Source: a virus. Taken from it: DNA of 64,000 nt. A program made the translations under genes and the position numbers. Positions 8,461 through 49,510 of this stretch are shown one piece after another. The stretch lies in IMG/VR virus record IMGVR_UViG_3300017987_000006, positions 1-64,000 of that record; one strand, given 5' to 3'. Under the pieces are notes generated by a model. The model was not told the DNA's origin. It did not search any database and saw only the letters and a list, made by a program, of their open reading frames with translations. How positions within the stretch are numbered: position 1 is the first letter of the stretch; every line of letters starts with the position of its first letter.

Positions 8461-9810
8461 GTGCTGTACAAACTGGAGCTGATGCGTGAGAAGATTCAGA
8501 AGGCGATCAGGACCCACCATATCCACATTCTCAAAGAGTTGAACGGAGCGCCACACGAGACCTACCTAGATTTTTCAAAAGCGTTGGGAGGCGTAGAAGC
8601 GGTTGTGGATGCGGTTATTGGAGCACACGAAGGAGATGTGCTAGAGGAGAGGGAGGCGGGGTCTGTTCTCAAGAAGAAGATTCAACTGCTAGAGGAAGAG
8701 CTCGCCGGGTTGGATGACGTCTGGGAGTCGAAACTGCACGACGCTATCATAGATCGTGCTCGGATCCTGCGAGATCGAAACCGTATGGAGGAGTTGATAG
8801 AGGACTTGGAGGGGCGGGTGCGGGAGTCTGCCAGAGCTGAGAAGGAGACCAGGCGGGAGTTGGGCAAGGCTGAGGAAGAGCGTGTGCGTGCCGTGCGCGG
8901 TAAAGCTGGTGCGGAGCAACGCCTGGAGCAGGAGAAGAGATCTTTGGAGGAGGCTCGTAAGGAACTGGTAAGGTTGCGGGCGGAGCTAGATCAATACAGA
9001 AGGGGCGATGCGCCGTATAAGGGCGTCGCAACGAGGAAGACCAGGGAGGCCAAGCAGCTCAGTCAACAGGTAAACGATCTTCGCAGGGAGATCTCCGATT
9101 ATGAAGATCTGTTAATCGCAGAGACTCCCACATCGAGCGAATATCTGGCCATGGTGCCGTCGTTCTCCGACACCATCAACGAAGACCCACCCACCCCAGA
9201 GGATAATGTGGTCTATTTGAGGCTTTGTGATGCCGTAGATTACATTTTGTCCACTCTGACTCCGAGGGAGGAGAAGGTATTGAGGATGCGATTTGGCATT
9301 GGCGAGAAGTCGGACCACACGTTAGAGGAGGTCGCGCGTGCATTTGGTTTAAGTAGGGAGCGTATTAGGATGATCGAGGCCAAGGCCATGCGCAAGCTAC
9401 GGAATCCAAGCAGGGCCAAATTTGTCAAGAGCTTCTTGGGAGATCATAGGGACGGATGGGTTGGACTTAGTGCTAGCAGGCGCAGGTGGGTAGGGAACAT
9501 TCAACGGTTGTGGTCAGTGGAGTGTTCCGCTGCCGAGACAAAGAAGAAAGAGAAGAAGAAGAAGAAGACGACGACAACAAGGAGAAGGGCTGTGGGGCAG
9601 AAGAGCGGACGAGGCAAGGAAGAGATGGTGAGATCGAAATTGCGCCGGATGATGATACGCAGGGGCGGGGTACCATACAGGGAGTTTGTGGAGAAGACTG
9701 GTATTGACATCACGACAGGCCAGTACGCTCGATGTCTACGCGCCGTGCGTGAGGAGAAGGGGATCTACGTGCCGCGCGGCGGGAAGAAGAAGAAGGGGGG
9801 TGTGCGGTGA
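8461..9810 (+). CDS. Sigma-70 region 4 protein with coiled-coil N-terminus (no region 2)
   Basis: 449 residues, GTG start after GAGGAGGAG. Residues about 62-218 form a long charged coiled coil. Residues about 252-326 are a textbook sigma-70 region 4: LTPREEKVLRMRFGIG, then HTLEEVARAFGLSRERIRMI and AMRKLRNPSRAKF, the helix-turn-helix that contacts the -35 element and the polymerase flap. Region 2, which recognises the -10 element and core clamp helices, is absent. A Lys/Arg-rich linker (about 350-395) leads to a second possible helix-turn-helix at the C-terminus. It cannot be a normal sigma; it may be a co-activator, appropriator or anti-sigma-like factor that redirects host polymerase. Confidence 0.8.
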   Translation: MLYKLELMREKIQKAIRTHHIHILKELNGAPHETYLDFSKALGGVEAVVDAVIGAHEGDVLEEREAGSVLKKKIQLLEEELAGLDDVWESKLHDAIIDRARILRDRNRMEELIEDLEGRVRESARAEKETRRELGKAEEERVRAVRGKAGAEQRLEQEKRSLEEARKELVRLRAELDQYRRGDAPYKGVATRKTREAKQLSQQVNDLRREISDYEDLLIAETPTSSEYLAMVPSFSDTINEDPPTPEDNVVYLRLCDAVDYILSTLTPREEKVLRMRFGIGEKSDHTLEEVARAFGLSRERIRMIEAKAMRKLRNPSRAKFVKSFLGDHRDGWVGLSASRRRWVGNIQRLWSVECSAAETKKKEKKKKKTTTTRRRAVGQKSGRGKEEMVRSKLRRMMIRRGGVPYREFVEKTGIDITTGQYARCLRAVREEKGIYVPRGGKKKKGGVR

Positions 9811-16510: not shown

Positions 16511-17154
16511 AGCTGACGATAATAGGTGTGGGGCAGGTGTTGGACTTCGCCTCGGGAGAGATGGTGGACACAATGCAGGTTCAGGCGGAGGGCGGGGAGG
16601 TCTTCAACATCCCAGCGGCGCAGGAAACCGTGCAAGAGTTGATACGCATCGTCAAGGGGTCGGGAGCCCAACTAGTGGTGCCCCCTCCTCCCAGGCAGGA
16701 CGACCCGTTGGGCCGGCAGCTCCAGCAGGCATATCAGTCAGCGGAGGGCAGGTCCGCGCAGACCGTGCCGCAAGCACAAGGAGACGAAGACTTCCCAGAA
16801 GGCGCAACGGTCTTCGGCGGGGACGATGGAGAGATCTACTACGCAGAGGATGGGCCAGAAGACTCCCCACAAGGCATGGGTGATGAGGAGCTGGAGCAGA
16901 TCTTTGGAGGCGGCGGGAACGGCACCCAAGAAGTCCAGGTGATGTCGGGACGAGATCTCCTTGCTTCCAAGATGCAGAGAACGGGACAGCCCAAGAACAC
17001 CAGTCTGAACCCTCGGCGGAATGACGGAGAGGATAGAAGCGGAGTGCCCAGCTACTCAATCGCAGCAGTGGATGAGAAGGGAAACCCCATGCTTCCACCC
17101 GCACCAAAAGGCGACGAGGATGATGAGGAGTTCGATCCCGGGGAGCAGATATGA
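16507..17154 (+). CDS. Acidic, largely disordered protein carrying an FPEGATVFGG motif (215 aa)
   Basis: Start at ATG 16507 after AAAGGGAGAAG. A small beta-rich N-terminal domain (KLTIIGVGQVLDFASGE) is followed by a long Gly/Asp/Glu/Pro-rich low-complexity region. In it, DFPEGATVFGG (about residues 98-108) nearly repeats the last residues of the protein at 38,089 (FPEGASIFGG). Such shared short motifs in disordered regions suggest a common docking partner. Function unknown. Overlaps the Mini-A-like gene by 4 bases. Confidence 0.65.
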   Translation: MKLTIIGVGQVLDFASGEMVDTMQVQAEGGEVFNIPAAQETVQELIRIVKGSGAQLVVPPPPRQDDPLGRQLQQAYQSAEGRSAQTVPQAQGDEDFPEGATVFGGDDGEIYYAEDGPEDSPQGMGDEELEQIFGGGGNGTQEVQVMSGRDLLASKMQRTGQPKNTSLNPRRNDGEDRSGVPSYSIAAVDEKGNPMLPPAPKGDEDDEEFDPGEQI

Positions 17155-18044
17155 GTAAGATCTGTTACATCGAAAAGACGTTTCGGGCTGATAGCTTGGC
17201 GGTGATTGAGCAGGCCAACACGATCATCGGAGAGTACCAGTCCCAGAATTTGGACATGAGCCTTCGTCAGCTTTATTACCAGTTCGTGGCGCGCGGATTG
17301 ATCGAGAACACGCAGAAGTCGTATAAGCGCCTCGGTTCGATCATTAACGATGCGAGGATGGCGGGGATGGTAGATTGGTGGGCTATGGAGGATAGAACCA
17401 GAAACCTCATGGGGACGATTCATCAAACATCTCCGGCAAAGGCGATCAAGGACATCGTGGAAGGTTACGCGATCGATAAGTGGGGGGATCAAGAGTACAG
17501 GATCGAGGCGTGGTGTGAGAAGGAGGCACTGATTGGAGTGTTCGCCGGAATCTGCAACGATCTCGATCTGGACTATTTCGCGTGTAGGGGATTCGTGAGC
17601 CAGAGCGAGATGTGGCGGGCCGCAATGCGGATGAGGGGATACGAGCGCAACGGACAAAAGCCGGTCGTGCTGCACTTTGGGGATCACGATCCAAGCGGGA
17701 TAGATATGACACGGGACATCAAGGACAGGTTCAAGACTTTTGGTGCCAGTGTGGAAGTTCGGCGGATAGCCCTCAACATGGATCAGGTGGAGGAGCACAA
17801 CCCACCACCAAATCCGGCCAAGACCTCGGACAGCAGGTTCAGCTCCTATGTAGCCGCGTACGGCGAGGAAAGCTGGGAGCTGGATGCGCTCGATCCGATC
17901 TTGTTGAGAAATCTGGTCCAGGATCGTGTCTTCGAGTATCGGGATGTAGATCTGTGGGACGCGGCTGTCCGGGAGGAAGAAGATCAGCGGAGGCAGCTTG
18001 AGGAAGTGTCAAACAGGTGGGAAGAGATCTTGGGGACGTTGTGA
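17151..18044 (+). CDS. Spo11/Topo VI A-like (Mini-A type) protein
   Basis: 297 residues. MSLRQLYYQF contains the R-x-x-Y-Y signature (R39, Y42, Y43) of the catalytic winged-helix domain of Topo VI A/Spo11. A TOPRIM domain follows, with the glutamate in WCEKEAL (E123) and the aspartate pair in HFGDHDPSG (D178, D180) for magnesium. No B-subunit (GHKL ATPase) is encoded in the window. Standalone short A subunits, called Mini-A, are known from mobile elements; their reaction is unproven. By family it may make tyrosine-linked DNA breaks in recombination. GGGGAG precedes the ATG, which overlaps the upstream gene. A 123-base non-coding stretch follows. Confidence 0.75.
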   Translation: MSKICYIEKTFRADSLAVIEQANTIIGEYQSQNLDMSLRQLYYQFVARGLIENTQKSYKRLGSIINDARMAGMVDWWAMEDRTRNLMGTIHQTSPAKAIKDIVEGYAIDKWGDQEYRIEAWCEKEALIGVFAGICNDLDLDYFACRGFVSQSEMWRAAMRMRGYERNGQKPVVLHFGDHDPSGIDMTRDIKDRFKTFGASVEVRRIALNMDQVEEHNPPPNPAKTSDSRFSSYVAAYGEESWELDALDPILLRNLVQDRVFEYRDVDLWDAAVREEEDQRRQLEEVSNRWEEILGTL

Positions 18045-35384: not shown

Positions 35385-35948
35385 ATGGGGTTCCCACGGG
35401 ACTGGCTTCCGGATGTCGCGCAAGTGATCGCAGAGGTTCTGCACGAGAACGCTCTGCGGCGCGGCATACCGGAGACCGTTCGACGATCGGAAATCGTTCT
35501 GGAGGGAAGGAATCCGTTGTTGATGTCCTCGACACACACGACCACCATGAAAGATGGGGCAAAGATCCCTACGTGGCGGGGCAAGAAGTTCGAGGGCAGG
35601 GAGTCGCTGAAACAAGCGATCTCGGACCTGATGGATGGCGTAGATGAAGATGACGGTAGAGGTGCTTTTGGGAATCCAGCTGGAAGATTCCGGTACGATG
35701 CTTTCGCCAAAGAATTTGCGGCCATCGGGGCGGGTGTACGCAACGAAGATGGCGTTCAAGGCGTTGTGCAAGATTCTGCACGAGAAATACGGGATTGGAC
35801 TGGACGTGGTGAGTCAGTCGGCCGAGGCCGCATCATCGATGTGCAGTATGATCGCCAACGGGGACATGGACTGGGAAGAGAACAACCTGATTCGAAAGAA
35901 GCGCGAGATGCTTCGCAGGAGGACAAGGAAAAATGCAAGCCTGGATAG
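35385..35948 (+). CDS. Hypothetical protein with long overlapping tail (187 aa)
   Basis: Start uncertain: ATG 35385 is the first ATG after the upstream stop, though the frame is open further upstream and codes for plausible residues before it. Residues 1-85 are folded-looking (DWLPDVAQVIAEVLHENAL; SRETVRRSEI-type helices; TTTMKDGAKIPTW). After about residue 88 the frame becomes Gly/Arg-rich and overlaps the next gene by 305 bases, so the true C-terminus may be earlier than the stop shows. Function unknown. Confidence 0.5.
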   Translation: MGFPRDWLPDVAQVIAEVLHENALRRGIPETVRRSEIVLEGRNPLLMSSTHTTTMKDGAKIPTWRGKKFEGRESLKQAISDLMDGVDEDDGRGAFGNPAGRFRYDAFAKEFAAIGAGVRNEDGVQGVVQDSAREIRDWTGRGESVGRGRIIDVQYDRQRGHGLGREQPDSKEARDASQEDKEKCKPG

Positions 35949-35967
35949 AGATGATCAAACAAAATAA
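35644..35967 (+). CDS. Hypothetical protein (107 aa)
   Basis: The better of two overlapping frames in this stretch: MTVEVLLGIQLEDSGTML, then AFKALCKILHEKYGIGLDVV, and a very basic C-terminus (RKKREMLRRRTRK). It could be a small nucleic-acid-binding protein. Overlaps the next gene by 35 bases. Confidence 0.6.
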   Translation: MKMTVEVLLGIQLEDSGTMLSPKNLRPSGRVYATKMAFKALCKILHEKYGIGLDVVSQSAEAASSMCSMIANGDMDWEENNLIRKKREMLRRRTRKNASLDRDDQTK

Positions 35968-36598
35968 GGTCACATTCGTCATTGGTGGGCTGATCGTCAT
36001 TCTGGCCATTGGCGGTGTCATCTACGGCATTGCCACGAAGGCCGGGGATGAAGGGTTTCACGCGGCGGCGGACGGGACAGTCCTGAAGTGGGACCGCTCG
36101 GCCCTGCCGCTGACTTGCTTTCACGACACATTCCCCAATGAGGAGCACCAGGCTGCGCTGAAGGAGGCGATCGGGAAGATCTCCAAGGCTGGGATATCGG
36201 CGTTCATGCCGTGCCAGCCTTGGATGGTCTCCGATCCCTTCCCCACAAAGCACGTCAAAAACACGGTCTTGATCAAGGTTGGCGCTCCGCCGGAGCCAGA
36301 ACGAGAAGTGGTGGTCACTTCTCCGTTCGAACCGAAGCACGGGGCGTCCACATTTTTAGCTCATGTCAAGGGAAAAGGGATCTACGGCGCGATCGTTTAT
36401 ATCATGCCAGACCTTGATAAGAAGCTGTACGGTAGGGTCTACCTGCACGAGCTTTTGCACGCCCTGGGCTTGACACACGACCGTGTTCGCGATTCGATTA
36501 TGTATCCGACAGCAGCAGAGAGGGCCACCGACCTGTCCAGTAAGGACACTAAACTACTGCTGAAAACCTACGGAGAGCGGAACGATGAGCCTAGCTGA
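35933..36598 (+). CDS. Membrane-anchored metzincin-type metalloprotease
   Basis: 221 residues. A single transmembrane helix near the N-terminus (VTFVIGGLIVILAIGGVIYG, about 13-32) is followed by an extracellular-type domain. HELLHALGLTH (172-182) is the HExxHxxGxxH zinc signature of metzincins/matrixins, and SIMYP (M190) is the Met-turn. All catalytic residues are present. It would act on the outer face of the membrane or in the periplasm/wall; substrate unknown. The AGGAGG ribosome site lies in the end of the previous gene. Confidence 0.75.
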   Translation: MQAWIEMIKQNKVTFVIGGLIVILAIGGVIYGIATKAGDEGFHAAADGTVLKWDRSALPLTCFHDTFPNEEHQAALKEAIGKISKAGISAFMPCQPWMVSDPFPTKHVKNTVLIKVGAPPEPEREVVVTSPFEPKHGASTFLAHVKGKGIYGAIVYIMPDLDKKLYGRVYLHELLHALGLTHDRVRDSIMYPTAAERATDLSSKDTKLLLKTYGERNDEPS

Positions 36599-38144: not shown

Positions 38145-39171
38145 GAAGGTTCTGCAGAGTAATGTACACCTCCAGCAGACCATCTCGGAAATGGTGAGGG
38201 ATTTCGACGCCCGGCGGAATGAGACCGAGAAGCGCATTTCTGAAAGCAACCAGCAGCTCTGGCGCAACCAGCAGGAGCAGAACGAGGGCCTGCGCATCGC
38301 TGAGAAACACGCAATGATCCAGCGACGTGTCTTCAATGATGCATTGGCTGGGTGCACGCGCGTCACGAGCATCGAGCGGAAGATCCAGGAGGGATCGGAC
38401 GAGGTGGAAGAGGTCCAGGTCATCGACTGGGACTGGTACGCCGAGCAGTTGATCAACAGCGCCGATTATAACGACTTCATCGTTGGCGTCCTGGTTCCGG
38501 AGGAGACCGTGAAGCAGAAGACCGAGCAGCGGTCTCAGCGCGCTCGTGCGCAGGTCCTGCACTACTGTGTCTCCAAGGCCCTGGCCAAGGATGAGGCAAA
38601 GCTCAGAGAGGCGCTGGAGGGGGATGGCCTGGAAGGTCTGCTCAAGGACTTCATGCCCAACGGCGTGGATTGGACGGACGAGATGAGTCTCGAGATGGAG
38701 GACATTGCCAAGGCCGGTCTGATGCTTTGGGAGCAGAAGAAGCAGGAAGCCATCAAACGGGCCAAGAAGGTCAGGATCCACAGCGCCATCGATAAGCTGG
38801 TCAGGGTTATGCCAGACGAGTCCATCAGGAAGACGGCAGATCGCATCGAGGCTGGAGAGCCCATCCTGAAGGATAAGGATGGGAACGAGATCGAGCTGAG
38901 CGATGAAGAGGCCAAGGAGGCCGCCGAATTGATGCGTTCCAAGATCAACGATCCCGAAGCCATCGAGAAGGCCAAGAATGAGCTGATGGAGGAGACGGCC
39001 GCTGTGGCCAAGATAGCCACAGAGGCCCAGGAAGCCATCGCCAAGGGGGACGCTGAGACGGCCGGTAGGAAGATGGCTGAGCTGGAAGAAAAGGTCGAGG
39101 AGGCCGAGGCCAAGGCCCCTGATGACCCAAACAAGCAGTTCCCGGAAGGGGCTTCGATCTTCGGAGGATAA
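38089..39171 (+). CDS. Helical protein ending in FPEGASIFGG (360 aa)
   Basis: GGAGCAAG ribosome site. A basic start (MSKRKSKPKRNAK) and long charged helices through the whole length, including a coiled coil near 30-70 and an Ala/Glu-rich one near 290-345. The C-terminal ten residues FPEGASIFGG nearly match an internal motif of the protein at 16,507, suggesting a common binding partner. It has the look of a virion or scaffold-type protein; function unknown. Confidence 0.65.
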   Translation: MSKRKSKPKRNAKPLTARKKVLQSNVHLQQTISEMVRDFDARRNETEKRISESNQQLWRNQQEQNEGLRIAEKHAMIQRRVFNDALAGCTRVTSIERKIQEGSDEVEEVQVIDWDWYAEQLINSADYNDFIVGVLVPEETVKQKTEQRSQRARAQVLHYCVSKALAKDEAKLREALEGDGLEGLLKDFMPNGVDWTDEMSLEMEDIAKAGLMLWEQKKQEAIKRAKKVRIHSAIDKLVRVMPDESIRKTADRIEAGEPILKDKDGNEIELSDEEAKEAAELMRSKINDPEAIEKAKNELMEETAAVAKIATEAQEAIAKGDAETAGRKMAELEEKVEEAEAKAPDDPNKQFPEGASIFGG

Positions 39172-39172
39172 C

Positions 39173-39361
39173 ATGCCGCGTATCATCAGGGGGACAGCCG
39201 AGAAGAAGTACAACATCGTCAAGACCCAACATCGTTCAAACATCAACAAGATGCGTTGCCAGGGCTGCAGGTTGGGTTACGCAGAGCGTGTTCAGACGGC
39301 CGGCGGGTGGGTCTATCGTTGCAACCGGTGCGGCCGGGAGTACACTGTAGACAAGCTGTAG
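39173..39361 (+). CDS. Zinc-ribbon protein (62 aa), last gene of the rightward block
   Basis: Start at ATG 39173 (CGGAGGATAAC). After a basic N-terminus, MRCQGCRLGY and YRCNRCGREY form a zinc ribbon. Followed by two hairpins (39,368-39,404) that probably end the rightward transcript. Confidence 0.7.
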   Translation: MPRIIRGTAEKKYNIVKTQHRSNINKMRCQGCRLGYAERVQTAGGWVYRCNRCGREYTVDKL

Positions 39362-39367
39362 AACTAA

Positions 39368-39404
39368 AGAGAGGTCGGTCGTCCTCTCTAAACCCGAGGG
39401 GTTT
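39368..39404 (+). terminator. Double hairpin at the end of the rightward block
   Basis: Two adjacent hairpins: AGAGAGG/CCTCTCT with an 8-base loop (39368-39389) and AAACCC/GGGTTT with a 3-base loop (39390-39404). The second ends in TTT but has no long T tract. Position right after the last gene supports a terminator or a 3' end processing structure. Confidence 0.5.
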
Positions 39405-39473: not shown

Positions 39474-39500
39474 AAGAAAAGACAGCCCGGCCGGGCTGCC
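39474..39500 (-). terminator. Leftward intrinsic terminator beyond the array
   Basis: A perfect palindrome CAGCCCGGCCGGGCTG (39483-39498). Read leftward, the GC hairpin is followed by TCTTTTCTTAG, a U-rich tract; read rightward there is none. It would end a transcript that passes through the repeat array from the leftward operon. Confidence 0.6.
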
Positions 39501-40612
39501 TCAGGATGGCATGGATTGAGAAGGAGTGTCAGAGCGATCGGGTCTGGATCAGATCGTCGAACTGGTGGGGACCGGACCGCGTTGGGTTGTCGCCACGATC
39601 AGGTCTGGCAGGATATGGACTGTCGAGTTGGTTAGATAAGGGCTGTCGCGCCGTGACGGACTGCGCCGTGCGGAGGGGGGACGTCGACTAGGCGCGAGCG
39701 GGAGTGGTCAGGCATGGTTCGTCTGATCGCGGGGGACCGGGCAGGAGAAGGCTTGTCAGATCGAGAGGGATTGGCCTGTTCCAGCTCGTCGCGAAGGCTT
39801 GGCTTATCAGTTAGGCCCGGCCAGGTCTGTCAGCTGCGTGGTGCGTGAGGGCCGGATCGGGCATGTCGAATCGGATGACGACGAGGTGCGGGTGGGCCAG
39901 TCAGCTTGGGTGGGGTTGAGGAGCGACGGCATGGGATGTCGGCCGGGGCGGGCGTGAACTGGAGCGGGTTGTCGGCTTTGCCAGCACCGGCTCGCAACGG
40001 CTCGTAATGAATCGGACCGTCGAAGTGGATGGGCTAGGAGGGGAGAGGGGAGGCTTGTCAGCACGGGGTGAGGTGGATAGGTCAGGAATGTCGAGCAGTC
40101 TCGGCTGGTTTAGGGTTGGCTTGTCAGGCAGGAGCGGTCCGGTGTAGATCGGATTGTCCAGTCGGTTGGAACAGGCAAGGCATGTCGAGCAGGGAAGGCG
40201 CGGCTGATCTTGGCCCGTCGATTAGGATGGGTAGGGATTGGCTTGTCGGAATGGATCGAATGGGCTTGTCTATGCGGACGGGGACCGAGCGGACCAGGAG
40301 AGGTGAGTCGATCTGAAGTGGATGGGCGCGAACCGGAAGGGTCTGTCGAAAGGTTTGGGATGGGCGGGGACAAGACAGGTGCGTCAGAATGAGGGGGCTC
40401 GAGTGAGAGCGAGTGGGTGAGTCGACCCGGCTTGGTACGCGGTGGTCCGGCATGTCAGCTCGAGAGGAACCGGCTTGGTCTGTCGGACTGGTGTGGTGTG
40501 TATGGGACTGTCTCGTCGGGATCGGGTTGGTTTGATTTGGCGAGGTGTGTCAGGAGGGTCTAAGGTGGGTGGGACCGTGTTGGCTTGTACGGGATAGTCT
40601 CAGTGTCTTGTC
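39500..40612. repeat. Gene-free array of GTC nodes joined by G-initial pentanucleotides (5n+3 spacing)
   Basis: About 1.1 kb with no plausible gene. On the + strand GTC trinucleotides occur at 39528, 39556, 39589, 39622, 39645, 39683, 39721, 39755, 39788, 39829, 39865, 39900, 39938, 39971, 40019, 40057, 40090, 40123, 40156, 40184, 40217, 40245, 40268, 40307, 40345, 40383, 40421, 40454, 40482, 40515, 40549 and 40610, plus variants CTC (39500), ATC (39806) and GTA (40587). Of 34 intervals, 29 equal 18, 23, 28, 33, 38 or 48, all 3 mod 5; others miss by 1-3 bases. Dividing each spacer into pentamers from the node, roughly nine in ten begin with G and nearly all with a purine. The pentamer before a node is typically GGYNT. 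Nodes were chosen by eye. Spacers do not repeat each other. The last node touches the stop codon of the leftward gene. Function unknown. Confidence 0.8.
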
Positions 40613-41433
40613 TAGGCCGCCTTGCCCTTTTTGGGAACCTTCGTCTTGGGAGCCTTCGTCTTGGGCTTGGGCAGCGAGCCCTTCTGGAGCTCCTCGACGG
40701 TGAGGAACTTGACGCGGCCGAAGCCCTGGGACCTCGAGCAGCCGAAGCCGTTATCTTGCGCCAGCTGCATGCAGTAGGTCAAGAACTCCTCGCTCATCCG
40801 CTTATCCTTCGGATCGGCAAACCATATCTCGAACTCGATGTAGGTACCGGGTTCCACGTAGTCGTGAAACTTGATCGTACTGCGCGGCCCCTGGGGGCCG
40901 ATGACGTGCGCCACCGTCTCTTCATGCCCGTCCGGCTCCACCAGCCGCTTCCTGTCCGCTTCCTTGTGTCCCTTGTCGTATAGGTAGACGCGGTCTGGGT
41001 GCTCGCAGCCCCGGATGAAGAATGAGTGCTGTAAGATCTGACGAACGCCGCGGTGTACGTTGGTCAGCCCCAGCACCGTTGCGGTCTCCTTGAAGCCGGC
41101 CTTGAGTTGCCGCGTCTCCAGAAAGATGCCATGTCCTTCCGGTTCGATCTTGTCCGGCTCCGCCTTGAACCCCGTCCAGGACTTGAGCTTCGCCTTCTCG
41201 CTCTCCTCTATGTCGTCATCGGACGACATCTCCTGGACGCGGGCTCTGGCCGCCTCCACGGTCTCGTCCTTGACCAGGCCCTTGCGGTGTCGTGCCTCGA
41301 GCATGGCCAGCTCGGATTCCGGATGTTTTGGCCAGCCGCCGAGCAGCCGGTTGGCCGTGACCATTGTCACCTTGTACTTCGTGTAGATGTTGACGTCGTG
41401 TTCGCGAACTAGTTCCTCAAAAGTCCTCTCCAT
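40612..41433 (-). CDS. RAMP/Cas7-like phage protein
   Basis: 273 residues, ATG with AAGGAGATCTC upstream, last gene of the leftward operon. The C-terminal half has TIKFHDYVEPGTYIEFEIWF (about 184-203) and then NGFGCSRSQGFGRVKF (about 228-243), a glycine-rich loop of the kind found at the end of RAMP (ferredoxin-like) RNA-binding domains such as Cas7/Cas5/Cas6. The N-terminus (YTKYKVTMVTANRLLGGWP) would be the first strand. A Lys/Pro-rich tail closes it. Similar proteins occur in phages without CRISPR loci. The stop codon abuts the pentamer-phased array, so its mRNA may carry that array. RNA binding is an inference. Confidence 0.45.
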   Translation of the reverse strand: MERTFEELVREHDVNIYTKYKVTMVTANRLLGGWPKHPESELAMLEARHRKGLVKDETVEAARARVQEMSSDDDIEESEKAKLKSWTGFKAEPDKIEPEGHGIFLETRQLKAGFKETATVLGLTNVHRGVRQILQHSFFIRGCEHPDRVYLYDKGHKEADRKRLVEPDGHEETVAHVIGPQGPRSTIKFHDYVEPGTYIEFEIWFADPKDKRMSEEFLTYCMQLAQDNGFGCSRSQGFGRVKFLTVEELQKGSLPKPKTKAPKTKVPKKGKAA

Positions 41434-44364: not shown

Positions 44365-44580
44365 TCAGATTGTGCTCTGAGTCTTCGCGCTGCGTTTCAG
44401 AAGCGAGCACATGTACCTGCTCGCCGTGTCTGCATCATCGAATGATTTTCGATCAATCTCGATTTCCACTCCTGTTTCACCCACCTCGATAGCCACTAGA
44501 TCTGCCGGCCCTTCCCAGTAATCAACGTCCGGGGCTTCCAGCTTTCCCGGGCGCACGACGCGCAAGATCATTTGGGGCAT
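44365..44580 (-). CDS. Hypothetical protein (71 aa)
   Basis: Start at the ATG for MPQMILRVVRPGKLEAP (44580). Beta-rich (ADLVAIEVGETGVEIEIDRK) followed by a short helix (ASRYMCSLLKRS). Overlaps the upstream gene by 13 bases. Function unknown. Confidence 0.6.
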   Translation of the reverse strand: MPQMILRVVRPGKLEAPDVDYWEGPADLVAIEVGETGVEIEIDRKSFDDADTASRYMCSLLKRSAKTQSTI

Positions 44581-44864
44581 GCTTCGTCCTCCTTGATCTC
44601 TCCGGTCTCCAGATCTACCCACCCGACGAAGAGATACCTCCATCCCATCCCCGAGCTGGTGTCGGCGGGATATTTCTCTGGAGCCTCCTTGCAGGTGTTG
44701 TCTGGGCCGACGGCGAGGAATTGAAGGTGGCCGCAGTTTGCGCTGTCGAGGGCGTGGTTCTGGTATGCGGCCCACTCCGTGTTCTCGTGGTTGTATGGCG
44801 ACGAGCGCATTGCCTCCAGCGCTTCCGGGTGCGGTTTCTCATTGCCGATAAGCCTTTTGCTCAT
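44568..44864 (-). CDS. Hypothetical protein (98 aa)
   Basis: ATG start 3 bases from the upstream stop. Turn-rich with aromatic residues and three cysteines (NCGHLQFLAVGPDNTC; a late C). The end is acidic and Trp-containing (YLFVGWVDLETGEI). No family recognised. Confidence 0.6.
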   Translation of the reverse strand: MSKRLIGNEKPHPEALEAMRSSPYNHENTEWAAYQNHALDSANCGHLQFLAVGPDNTCKEAPEKYPADTSSGMGWRYLFVGWVDLETGEIKEDEACPK

Positions 44865-47466: not shown

Positions 47467-48954
47467 TTACAACTCCTCGTTGATGCACTCGTTGAGATCT
47501 TTGTTCCTCCTGAAGCTGAGAACCTTGGGGAAGGTGAGTGCGTTGCTATCCTGCCCCTTGGATATGTAGCTTCGGTCCTGGTATCCCACTTGCAGGACAC
47601 CGATCCACATCCCTTCATCAGCGATGCGCTTGCGTTGGGCGTCCGTCAGGCCGCCGCTCACCTCGCCGATGTAATGCTTCACCCCATCCTTGTCGTACTG
47701 GTACAAACTGATCGATCCGACCCGCTTCATGTTCTTGCCGGTGCCGTAGGCTCCGTTCGTCTTCAACCGCTTGCCGCATACGGCACACTTACCGCTGCTC
47801 GTCTGCTTCTGCAGCGCGCCATGGTCAGGGACATGACATTTCGTGGTGCAGTGCTCGCGCATGCCGTCAGGTTCCCAGATCCCGATGAAGTCGTCCTCCA
47901 GGGCGTTCTTGACCTTCCAGCAGACGTTCGGCCGATCTGGCTGACCAAGGAAGCTGAGATGCTTCTCGCCCAGCGATCCCCAACAGTCGTACACCACCCA
48001 TCCCTCGTACCCGTACTTCCTCATCTCTGAGATCATGTCGTCGTAAGGCTCGGCAGCAATGTCTGGGCCGTGTACGAACTTGCAGAGATGGAGTCCGGTG
48101 TGACCTCCCCACCCATCGACGAGCTCCATCAACCAGTCGAGCCAGAAGCTACAGCTGTGGTCCTTCTCGAGGTTGTCCCCTTCCCAGAAGGGCATACGGA
48201 ACACGTAGGCGTGGACCAGGCCGAGCTTGCGCTGCATCTCAATCGCCCGCTCCGGCAGAGAGTTGGCGATTTGCTGCATCGCCTTGAATTCTTCTTTCGT
48301 CTTTCCTTCGCCGATGTAGAACTCACAGAGCAAGATCGTCTCGGCGGGGAGCAGGGCCTCGAACTCCTCGACCAGGTGCGGGAACTTGTCGTTCTCGACC
48401 TTCATCTTCCCGCGGGATTGGATCCACACAGATCCGTCTCGGTCTTTGGAGACCACGAAGCACATCCCGTTCTTCTTCACGGTCCAGGCCAGCGGGGGAC
48501 CTCCTACACTCCTCCCAGACTTCCGTGATTCGAGCTTCCGCAGCTTCTCCTCCTTGATCGAGTTGACGGGCTTCGAGAAGGCCACGTTGTTGGGCAGCGG
48601 GCCATCGAAAGAGATCTGCTGGGAGCGGGTAACGCCGCCGAGCTCCTCTTCCAACATCGTCGCGAACTTGCCCTTGCTCGGCTTCACAATGATCTCGTAC
48701 CCCGCCTGCGCTTTCTTCTTGACGTCGCGGACAAGCTGCTCAAGCGCGGAACGTTCTGGAGAGATCCAGGCTTTCGTGCCCTTCTTTCCCTTCTCACCAG
48801 GAATGTCCACCGTCTCCTGGATCTTCCCGTCCAACACGCCCCACTGGGTGATGACCTCGTCCCCGTCTACCCATCCAGCCCAGACCTGCGTGTTCTTCTT
48901 GGCCTCCCGCTGCATGCTGCAGTAGGTCTTCTTACTCCTGGGTGTCTTTCTCAT
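47467..48954 (-). CDS. ATP-dependent DNA ligase with WGR-like domain and zinc insertion
   Basis: 495 residues from ATG 48954 (GGAAGAGGAC upstream). Residues about 22-90 resemble a WGR domain (VWAGWVDGDEVITQWGV). Nucleotidyltransferase motifs follow: motif I AWTVKKNGMC (K160; K-x-N-G instead of the usual K-x-D-G), motif III LLCEFYIG (E211), motif IV YEGWVVYD (E317), motif V CWKVKNA (K347, K349). Between motif V and the OB-fold C-terminal domain is a CxxxC...CxxC insertion (about 369-393), a likely zinc site. By family it seals nicks using ATP, forming an enzyme-AMP intermediate on the motif I lysine. The D-to-N change and zinc insert are unusual. Confidence 0.75.
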   Translation of the reverse strand: MRKTPRSKKTYCSMQREAKKNTQVWAGWVDGDEVITQWGVLDGKIQETVDIPGEKGKKGTKAWISPERSALEQLVRDVKKKAQAGYEIIVKPSKGKFATMLEEELGGVTRSQQISFDGPLPNNVAFSKPVNSIKEEKLRKLESRKSGRSVGGPPLAWTVKKNGMCFVVSKDRDGSVWIQSRGKMKVENDKFPHLVEEFEALLPAETILLCEFYIGEGKTKEEFKAMQQIANSLPERAIEMQRKLGLVHAYVFRMPFWEGDNLEKDHSCSFWLDWLMELVDGWGGHTGLHLCKFVHGPDIAAEPYDDMISEMRKYGYEGWVVYDCWGSLGEKHLSFLGQPDRPNVCWKVKNALEDDFIGIWEPDGMREHCTTKCHVPDHGALQKQTSSGKCAVCGKRLKTNGAYGTGKNMKRVGSISLYQYDKDGVKHYIGEVSGGLTDAQRKRIADEGMWIGVLQVGYQDRSYISKGQDSNALTFPKVLSFRRNKDLNECINEEL

Positions 48955-49510
48955 CGTCCTCTTCCTTTTCCATCGGGAGGTACACGTTGCGTCGCTTATC
49001 GCTGTTGTCCTTCTCGGATCGTATGAGCCCGAGCTTTCGTAGTACCCCAATATGTCTGGAGACTGTCTGTGCTGTGGTGAAAACTCCGACCTCGTCCAGC
49101 CCTCGATGAATATCGCGCAACGCTTTTCTACCCTCGCGAATCAGCTCTAGCACCAACAAGACATCTTCTTTTATACGATGGCCGGCCACAACGAACGGCT
49201 GTCTTTGAGCTGTGAATGGGGCGGACTCCATGATGGCATCGGTTAGAACCAAGAACTGTTCTATGTCGTGTAGGCTTTTCGTCTTGATCCAGACGTGGGC
49301 CTGGTCTGTCTTGCCTGGGGTCACGCACAGGTTGAAGCTCTCAGATTGCCGTTTCATAAACTCCTTCACCTGGGCGAATTTGGAGAACCATTCGAACGAA
49401 ACTCCCTTCGGCGCGTTTTCCTTATCCCTCCTCCAAAGCGCGTTGATGTGGTTCCAGTAATTCAGAACCTCGGAGTCGCTAAGGGGCTTGTCAGATCTTC
49501 GCTGAGTCAT
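48932..49510 (-). CDS. Winged-helix regulator-like protein (192 aa)
   Basis: N-terminal half helical with Trp residues; C-terminal half is a winged helix: EDVLLVLELIREGRKALRDI, TAQTVSRHIGVLRKLGLIRS, then RRNVYLPM as the wing and an acidic tail. The arrangement fits ArsR/MarR-like DNA-binding proteins. Overlaps the ligase gene by 23 bases. Probably a regulator of phage or host genes. Confidence 0.6.
   Translation of the reverse strand: MTQRRSDKPLSDSEVLNYWNHINALWRRDKENAPKGVSFEWFSKFAQVKEFMKRQSESFNLCVTPGKTDQAHVWIKTKSLHDIEQFLVLTDAIMESAPFTAQRQPFVVAGHRIKEDVLLVLELIREGRKALRDIHRGLDEVGVFTTAQTVSRHIGVLRKLGLIRSEKDNSDKRRNVYLPMEKEEDDEKDTQE

Follow-up and report, generated by a model that had tools for sequence, protein, structure and literature searches.

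The gene-free pentamer array that abuts a minus-strand RAMP gene in the window (the whole stretch of DNA that was analysed, i.e., 64,000 nucleotides, positions 1 to 64,000 of the IMG/VR virus record IMGVR_UViG_3300017987_000006) is very probably a guide-RNA array of the VIPR kind, in which a Vipr polymer on RNA would carry one guide per GTC-to-GTC unit and repress the genes of competitors. VIPR (Viral Interference Programmable Repeat) was presented in a 2026 preprint (PMC13142463, doi 10.64898/2026.04.26.720920), the first description of phage-against-phage targeting systems of this kind. According to its main text, VIPR consists of a phage-encoded ancestral RAMP protein, Vipr, and guide RNAs of 9–16 YNNGG repeats; their NN bases pair with double-stranded DNA, skipping one base of the target. 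The sequence-only reading of the window had stated that no described phage element resembles this array, a claim overturned by these guide RNAs of GGY/NN pentamers (PMC13142463). We observed the array grammar, the RAMP neighbor, the recurrent linkage of the two, unit-by-unit exchange, and one strong and a few weaker one-base-skip matches in relatives. For the window phage itself, we infer expression, formation of the ribonucleoprotein, DNA binding, and repression.

According to the preferred explanation, the array would encode guide RNA for a VIPR system. Vipr would form a polymer along the RNA, each subunit taking up five bases and gripping the conserved G(G) that opens a pentamer. The last two bases of the pentamer would be presented to double-stranded DNA for pairing, and between successive pairs one base of the target would be skipped. 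One guide would be carried by each GTC-to-GTC unit, and with this pool of guides the phage would repress genes of competing phages or prophages. Against this explanation, the third pentamer base is free, the units are short, and the window yielded neither targets of its own units nor a 3′ tail. The features of the window are summarized in Table 1.

Table 1. Positions of the array, the vipr gene, and other features of the window.
Feature	Position	Strand	Description
GTC-punctuated pentamer array	39501..40612	+ (G-rich strand shown as +)	~32 units GTC-RNNNN-(GNNNN)n-GGNNY; putative VIPR guide-RNA array
Example complete unit, 9 pentamers	39971..40018	+	NN string decoded as TT CA CC TC AC TC AT TC CC
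vipr	40612..41433	-	273-aa protein, Cas7-like RAMP by predicted fold, C-terminal G-loop NGFGCSRSQGFGRVKF; stop codon touches the array
Terminator-like hairpin	39477..39498	-	CAGCCCGGCCGGGCTG (39483-39498), then TTTT; far end of the array; would terminate leftward transcripts crossing vipr and array; from sequence
Hairpin AGAGAGG...CCTCTCT	39368..39389	.	Just after the last plus-strand gene; left bound of the gene-free stretch; from sequence
Zinc-ribbon protein gene	39122-39361	+	Last plus-strand gene before the array
Matrixin-like metallopeptidase domain	35933-36598	+	
Phage topoisomerase-family protein	17151-18044	+	PHROG 6247
Sigma-factor-like protein	8461-9810	+	PHROG 351
98-aa protein	44568-44864	-	58%-identical homologue near vipr and array of the 171-kb phage contig behind L139
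ATP-dependent DNA ligase	47467-49050	-	

Grammar of the array and the adjoining vipr gene

The sequence-only reading had described GTC nodes at distances of 5n+3 and pentamers beginning with G, and both descriptions stood up to measurement. The autocorrelation of G over 39,500–40,612 was 0.26 at lag 5 and 0.19 at lag 10, and 0.17, 0.23, 0.23, and 0.20 at lags 23, 28, 33, and 38, respectively. In 60 dinucleotide-preserving shuffles, the lag-5 value was 0.002 ± 0.028 with a maximum of 0.061, far below that of the array, so the period-5 order of G is real. The Fourier test at period 5 that had been proposed did not reveal this signal (G power 2.1, not raised) because every GTC shifts the phase by 3. 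When a hidden Markov model of GTC nodes and 5-base steps was compared with a base-composition model, the gain was 423 bits for the array, versus 88 ± 11 bits (maximum 111) for shuffles and 94–162 bits for five flanking stretches, and the parse spanned the entire array with about nine inserted bases. The distances between parsed nodes were 5n+3 (18, 23, 28, 33, 38, or 48 bases) in 27 of 32 cases, and a parse-free count of GGNNNGTC gave 21 of 28 distances equal to 3 mod 5.

The first base was G in 95% of the 167 window pentamers and the second base in 70%; position 3 was flat (0.01 bit), and positions 4–5 held 0.05–0.06 bit. GTC was kept at nearly all nodes with few slips, and the units between GTCs contained 3–9 pentamers each, mostly 6 or 7. 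The pentamer before a node was GG-N-N-Y (first base G, 92%; second base G, 97%; fifth base T, 61%, or C, 24%). The GGYNT suggested earlier for this position therefore holds for GG and the final T, but its third-base Y is weak (C + T, ∼62%). As that reading had claimed, the constraint is on phase and not on sequence, and the array is not a satellite: it contains no tandem repeat, and GTC alone recurs. A scan of the 178,259-base virus record detected no comparable stretch elsewhere, and searches of the array against Rfam and with tRNA, tandem-repeat, and phage blastn methods found nothing. When folded as RNA, the plus strand was slightly more stable than shuffles (z −2.35), the minus strand was not, and no clear fold was seen. 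Regarding the suggestion that something reads steps of five bases, a protein polymer (RAMP subunits on RNA in a five-base register) would be the best explanation, and the helical half-turn suggested with it was unsupported.

The RAMP identity of the adjoining gene had been missed by the sequence-only reading. Its product matches Cas7/Csm3-type RAMP proteins by predicted fold: the structure was predicted with a pLDDT of 86, and the best 50 PDB fold matches were all CRISPR effector complexes (types III, IV-B, and VII; top E 9e-7), with moderate TM-scores (0.27–0.44 by query). Among the viral fold matches, the second best carries the annotation of a Cas-associated RAMP protein. Profile matches to Csm4 (E 0.02–0.06) and to the Vipr of phage SUSP1 (E 6e-4 over the G-loop, probability 29%) agree with the RAMP identity but are weak alone, and there was also a weak Cas6_C match. 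A single-protein search found no close relatives of the window Vipr, and a family profile was required. Built from eight proteins adjoining other arrays, this profile matched the window Vipr at E=9e-15 and ∼30 proteins in array-bearing loci overall.

Among the proteins neighboring vipr in the window, there was no confident Pfam match, and none of the others scanned matched Cas. Where gene families recurred near vipr in other loci, the vipr family was the only one that included the window. The 98-aa protein in Table 1 is a possible accessory gene, judging from its homologue near another vipr and array. The Vipr closest to that of the window (L138:9977-10831, on a 95-kb contig) has 45% identity, and no GTC-node array was recognized nearby; this system may use another form of guide.

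Relatives, cassettes, and decoded targets

The sequence-only reading had proposed a search of other viruses with such a model, and this succeeded: the model trained on the window alone detected arrays of 4 to 65 nodes in 45 fetched loci, and an exact-pattern scan of IMG/VR gave at least 119 stretches. The relatives share the grammar, and the bases after GTC are lineage-specific, e.g., GTCGCA (L075, L105, and L116), GTCGAATGG (L048 and L109), and GTCGCRTT (L033 and L056). Across arrays, the first G held ∼1.6–2.0 bits, the second G 0.3–1.6 bits, position 3 0.01–0.5 bit, and positions 4–5 near zero. Position 3 leaned to C in most relatives and was also weak in many large, regular ones.

The linkage of vipr and array was measured in 58 loci fetched through Vipr-family proteins and not through the DNA pattern, some of them on contigs already seen; the gene was re-identified in 57. 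A GTC/5-base array was present in 50 of these 57 loci, at a median gap of 55 bases, and the strand of the array was opposite to that of vipr in 60 of 61 arrays. The layout of the window, with vipr on the minus strand abutting the array on the plus strand, fits that of the relatives. The loci include genomes of Nonomuraea, Actinomadura, Sphaerisporangium, Thermoactinospora, and Spongiactinospora; GTC arrays occur in actinobacterial genomes as well as in diverse phages, most of them environmental. Across all arrays, 387 of 1,582 units were 5n+4 (e.g., L155:5164-6273), with one six-base step, mostly just after the first pentamer. This type, about a quarter of the total, is unexplained by the simple grammar.

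Two near-identical arrays from one metagenome (L048 and L109) differed in that one has two consecutive units where the other has a single, different unit; the breakpoints lie at GTCGAATGG. A segment from GTC to GTC therefore behaves as a cassette. Insertions and deletions, several of them near nodes, also separated L039 from L050. Taken with the best target match described below, which ends at both nodes, this whole-unit difference indicates that one exchangeable guide is probably provided by each segment between GTCs. We give even chances to a more specific architecture, in which one long GTC-punctuated guide RNA or precursor would consist of cassettes that are independent guides, gained or lost as units between phages, with only G(G) and the last two bases of each pentamer mattering. 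If so, an RNA of ∼1 kb could cover dozens of targets. The main text of PMC13142463 does not contain this architecture, and its supplement may cover the GTC layout, so it may not be new. Between orthologous units of two Spongiactinospora species (L133 and L136), base 3 differed in 15 of 64 pentamers and bases 4 and 5 each differed in 7 of 65, as if bases 4–5 were constrained; this pattern was absent between L039 and L050.

For decoding, bases 4–5 were read from each pentamer (that directly behind GTC included) with one target base skipped, and 1,115 distinct units were compared with 4.3 Mb of DNA, mostly from phages, in which arrays had been masked. At E<0.001, there were four matches at skip 1 and 0, 0, and 0 at skips 0, 2, and 3; at E<0.01, there were seven versus 0, 0, and 1, respectively. 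When the dinucleotides were permuted within units (20 times), the means were 0.15 and 2.05 for the two thresholds. The skipped base was the third codon position of the longest open frame in all four best matches; in the match between L159 and L138, the longest frame is antisense, and its codon boundaries coincide with those of the sense frame TLQAALPEIHE. Among the skip-1 matches at E<0.5, the third codon position also led (67 to 48 to 36).

The best match, between unit 8995 of L155 and L178, covered 20 of 20 bases and ended at both GTCs. The decoded pattern of this unit was found in 86 IMG/VR contigs, whereas its two-base-skip version had no match in the IMG/VR viral contigs. For the 80 of the 86 matches that were listed, the frame reads NAADYGVPQT (79) or NAAEYGVPQT (1), and NAA[DE]YGVPQT is a motif of C5-cytosine DNA methyltransferases. 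The 86 contigs count as one target family because they have one conserved motif in common. This guide suggests a strategy in which a conserved protein motif is aimed at and wobble bases are ignored, so that one guide would reach many competitors. Among the other three best matches, one was to the array's own record (L083 and L185), and that of L159 was inexact (20/22); viral contigs contained no exact copy of its guide. Support for the code in this group therefore comes mainly from the L155 match and the statistical excess. The own-record case is a unit at L083:7409 that matches 17 of 18 bases, in wobble phase, of a gene next to its own array (L185:6960). There were 21 self-matches at the one-base skip, versus 9, 8, and 12 at skips 0, 2, and 3; they are possibly a sign of self-regulation.

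For the window, neither of the two 9-pentamer units had a target in viral contigs, one of them gave no convincing target in 50 VIPR-phage records, and all window units gave none against the 4.3 Mb or when clustered by target record. Most window units provide just 8–14 paired bases, too few for uniqueness in large collections. Two Spongiactinospora guides had no target in 343 genomes of its family.

The length of the units bears on a second, possible but clearly less probable arrangement of the same system, in which guides overlap: one vrRNA would span two or more GTC units, and GTC would be a start, end, or bend within longer guides. Units of 6–7 pentamers give 12–14 paired bases, below those of the published 9–16-repeat guides, "staggered arrays with overlapping vrRNAs" are named in the preprint (PMC13142463), and there is one 3′ tail per array in the clade that has a tail. 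However, the 20/20 match of L155 stops at the nodes, units are swapped at GTC boundaries, and decoding two units together with gaps of 0–9 target bases gave no clear favorite (7 and 5 were slightly raised).

Transcribed strand and alternative explanations

In 20 of 90 arrays, mainly actinobacterial ones, a hairpin (TAGCCG...CGGC) continues directly from the last pentamers at the 3′ end and is itself followed by GTCG. This tail was never found at the 5′ side, and the same expression occurred in 6 of 4000 random stretches. The fifth pair of the hairpin covaries (UA, 7; CG, 6; GC, 1; one broken). No such tail was recognized in the window. The tail in the relatives is a counterpart of the one at the 3′ end of published vrRNAs, and it favors the G-rich strand as the RNA.

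It is unlikely, though less so than the explanations below, that the functional RNA is instead the C-rich strand, as an untranslated part of the vipr mRNA. The opposite orientation of array and vipr would fit this, and a strong vipr-strand terminator lies just past the window array; because of its position at the far end, leftward transcription from vipr may run through the array. Moreover, several loci have the apparent ribosome-binding site of a vipr-strand gene directly at the far end of the array. On the other hand, the published vrRNAs carry GGY (main text of PMC13142463), the conserved hairpin tail occurs on the G-rich strand alone, at its 3′ end, and terminator counts over all arrays did not decide the transcribed strand.

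A decaying or unused VIPR array, in which the second G and the third base have drifted and the guides no longer work, is improbable. The flat third position, the reduced second G, and the lack of detected targets for window units are what decay would leave, but the first G and the GTC nodes are almost intact with few slips, the vipr gene is intact with a good predicted fold, and position 3 is also weak in large, regular relatives. A DNA-level element without guides (a polymer-binding centromere or a packaging or replication site with half-turn spacing) is scarcely credible: a protein repeating along DNA would be compatible with an exact five-base phase, but the spacing is exactly 5.0 through nine steps, drifting from B-DNA half turns, and neither the RAMP linkage nor the decoded targets of relatives fit it. 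TRAP-like binding, Rho sites, G-quadruplexes, centromeres, and transcription-pause arrays were also considered, and the RAMP linkage and decoded targets make them unnecessary.

A VIPR guide-RNA array thus remains the preferred explanation. A DNA pattern suffices to find arrays of this type, and their decoding is computational, so that networks of phage-against-phage targeting could be read from metagenomes. The VIPR kind has been known since 2026; the punctuated form differs from the main text of PMC13142463 and may or may not be in its supplement.

Comparison with known systems

As in VIPR (PMC13142463), the window has a RAMP gene adjoining long noncoding pentamers that start with GG and vary in the last two bases, and the one-base-skip targets decoded for the relatives lie within coding genes, where the skipped base is the wobble base. 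The differences concern several features. GTC nodes every 5n+3 bases bound short units in the window, unlike in the main text of the preprint, the supplement of which may cover GTC. The third pentamer base is unconstrained, unlike the published GGY; the preprint names "a related consensus," as it does the staggered arrays, with the detail in supplementary figures. The window units have 3–9 pentamers, and the published 9–16 repeats would be reached only if guides spanned several units. Unlike in VIPR as published (PMC13142463), the array is opposite to the vipr strand, >30 units stand in one array, and no accessory (vap) gene was identified. The published Vipr is a small RAMP protein (∼20 kDa) with an RRM core and a G-loop (PMC13142463); the window Vipr, at 273 aa, is larger.

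The type II VIPR locus of SUSP1 (KT454805.2, about 27.5–29.5 kb) encodes a RAMP protein of 195 aa, and GGYNN tracts lie on the strand of that gene. The window resembles it in having a RAMP protein with a comparable C-terminal G-loop and adjoining pentamer tracts. In contrast, SUSP1 has separate vrRNAs of ∼100 bases on the vipr strand (main text of PMC13142463), with GGY clearly kept and no GTC-node grammar.

The discoverers of VIPR propose that CRISPR class 1 effectors descend from it (PMC13142463). The window system is like these effectors, in which a Cas7/Csm3 backbone forms on crRNA, in protein fold and in its cassette-like guide array. Unlike CRISPR class 1, it has no repeats between spacers apart from GTC, and its discontinuous reading has a five-base rather than a six-base step. 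No direct repeats separating unique spacers, as in CRISPR-Cas, were found, and no cas genes occurred among the neighbors scanned. With tens of exchangeable guides, GTC-punctuated arrays seem intermediate between a handful of single guide RNAs and a CRISPR array.
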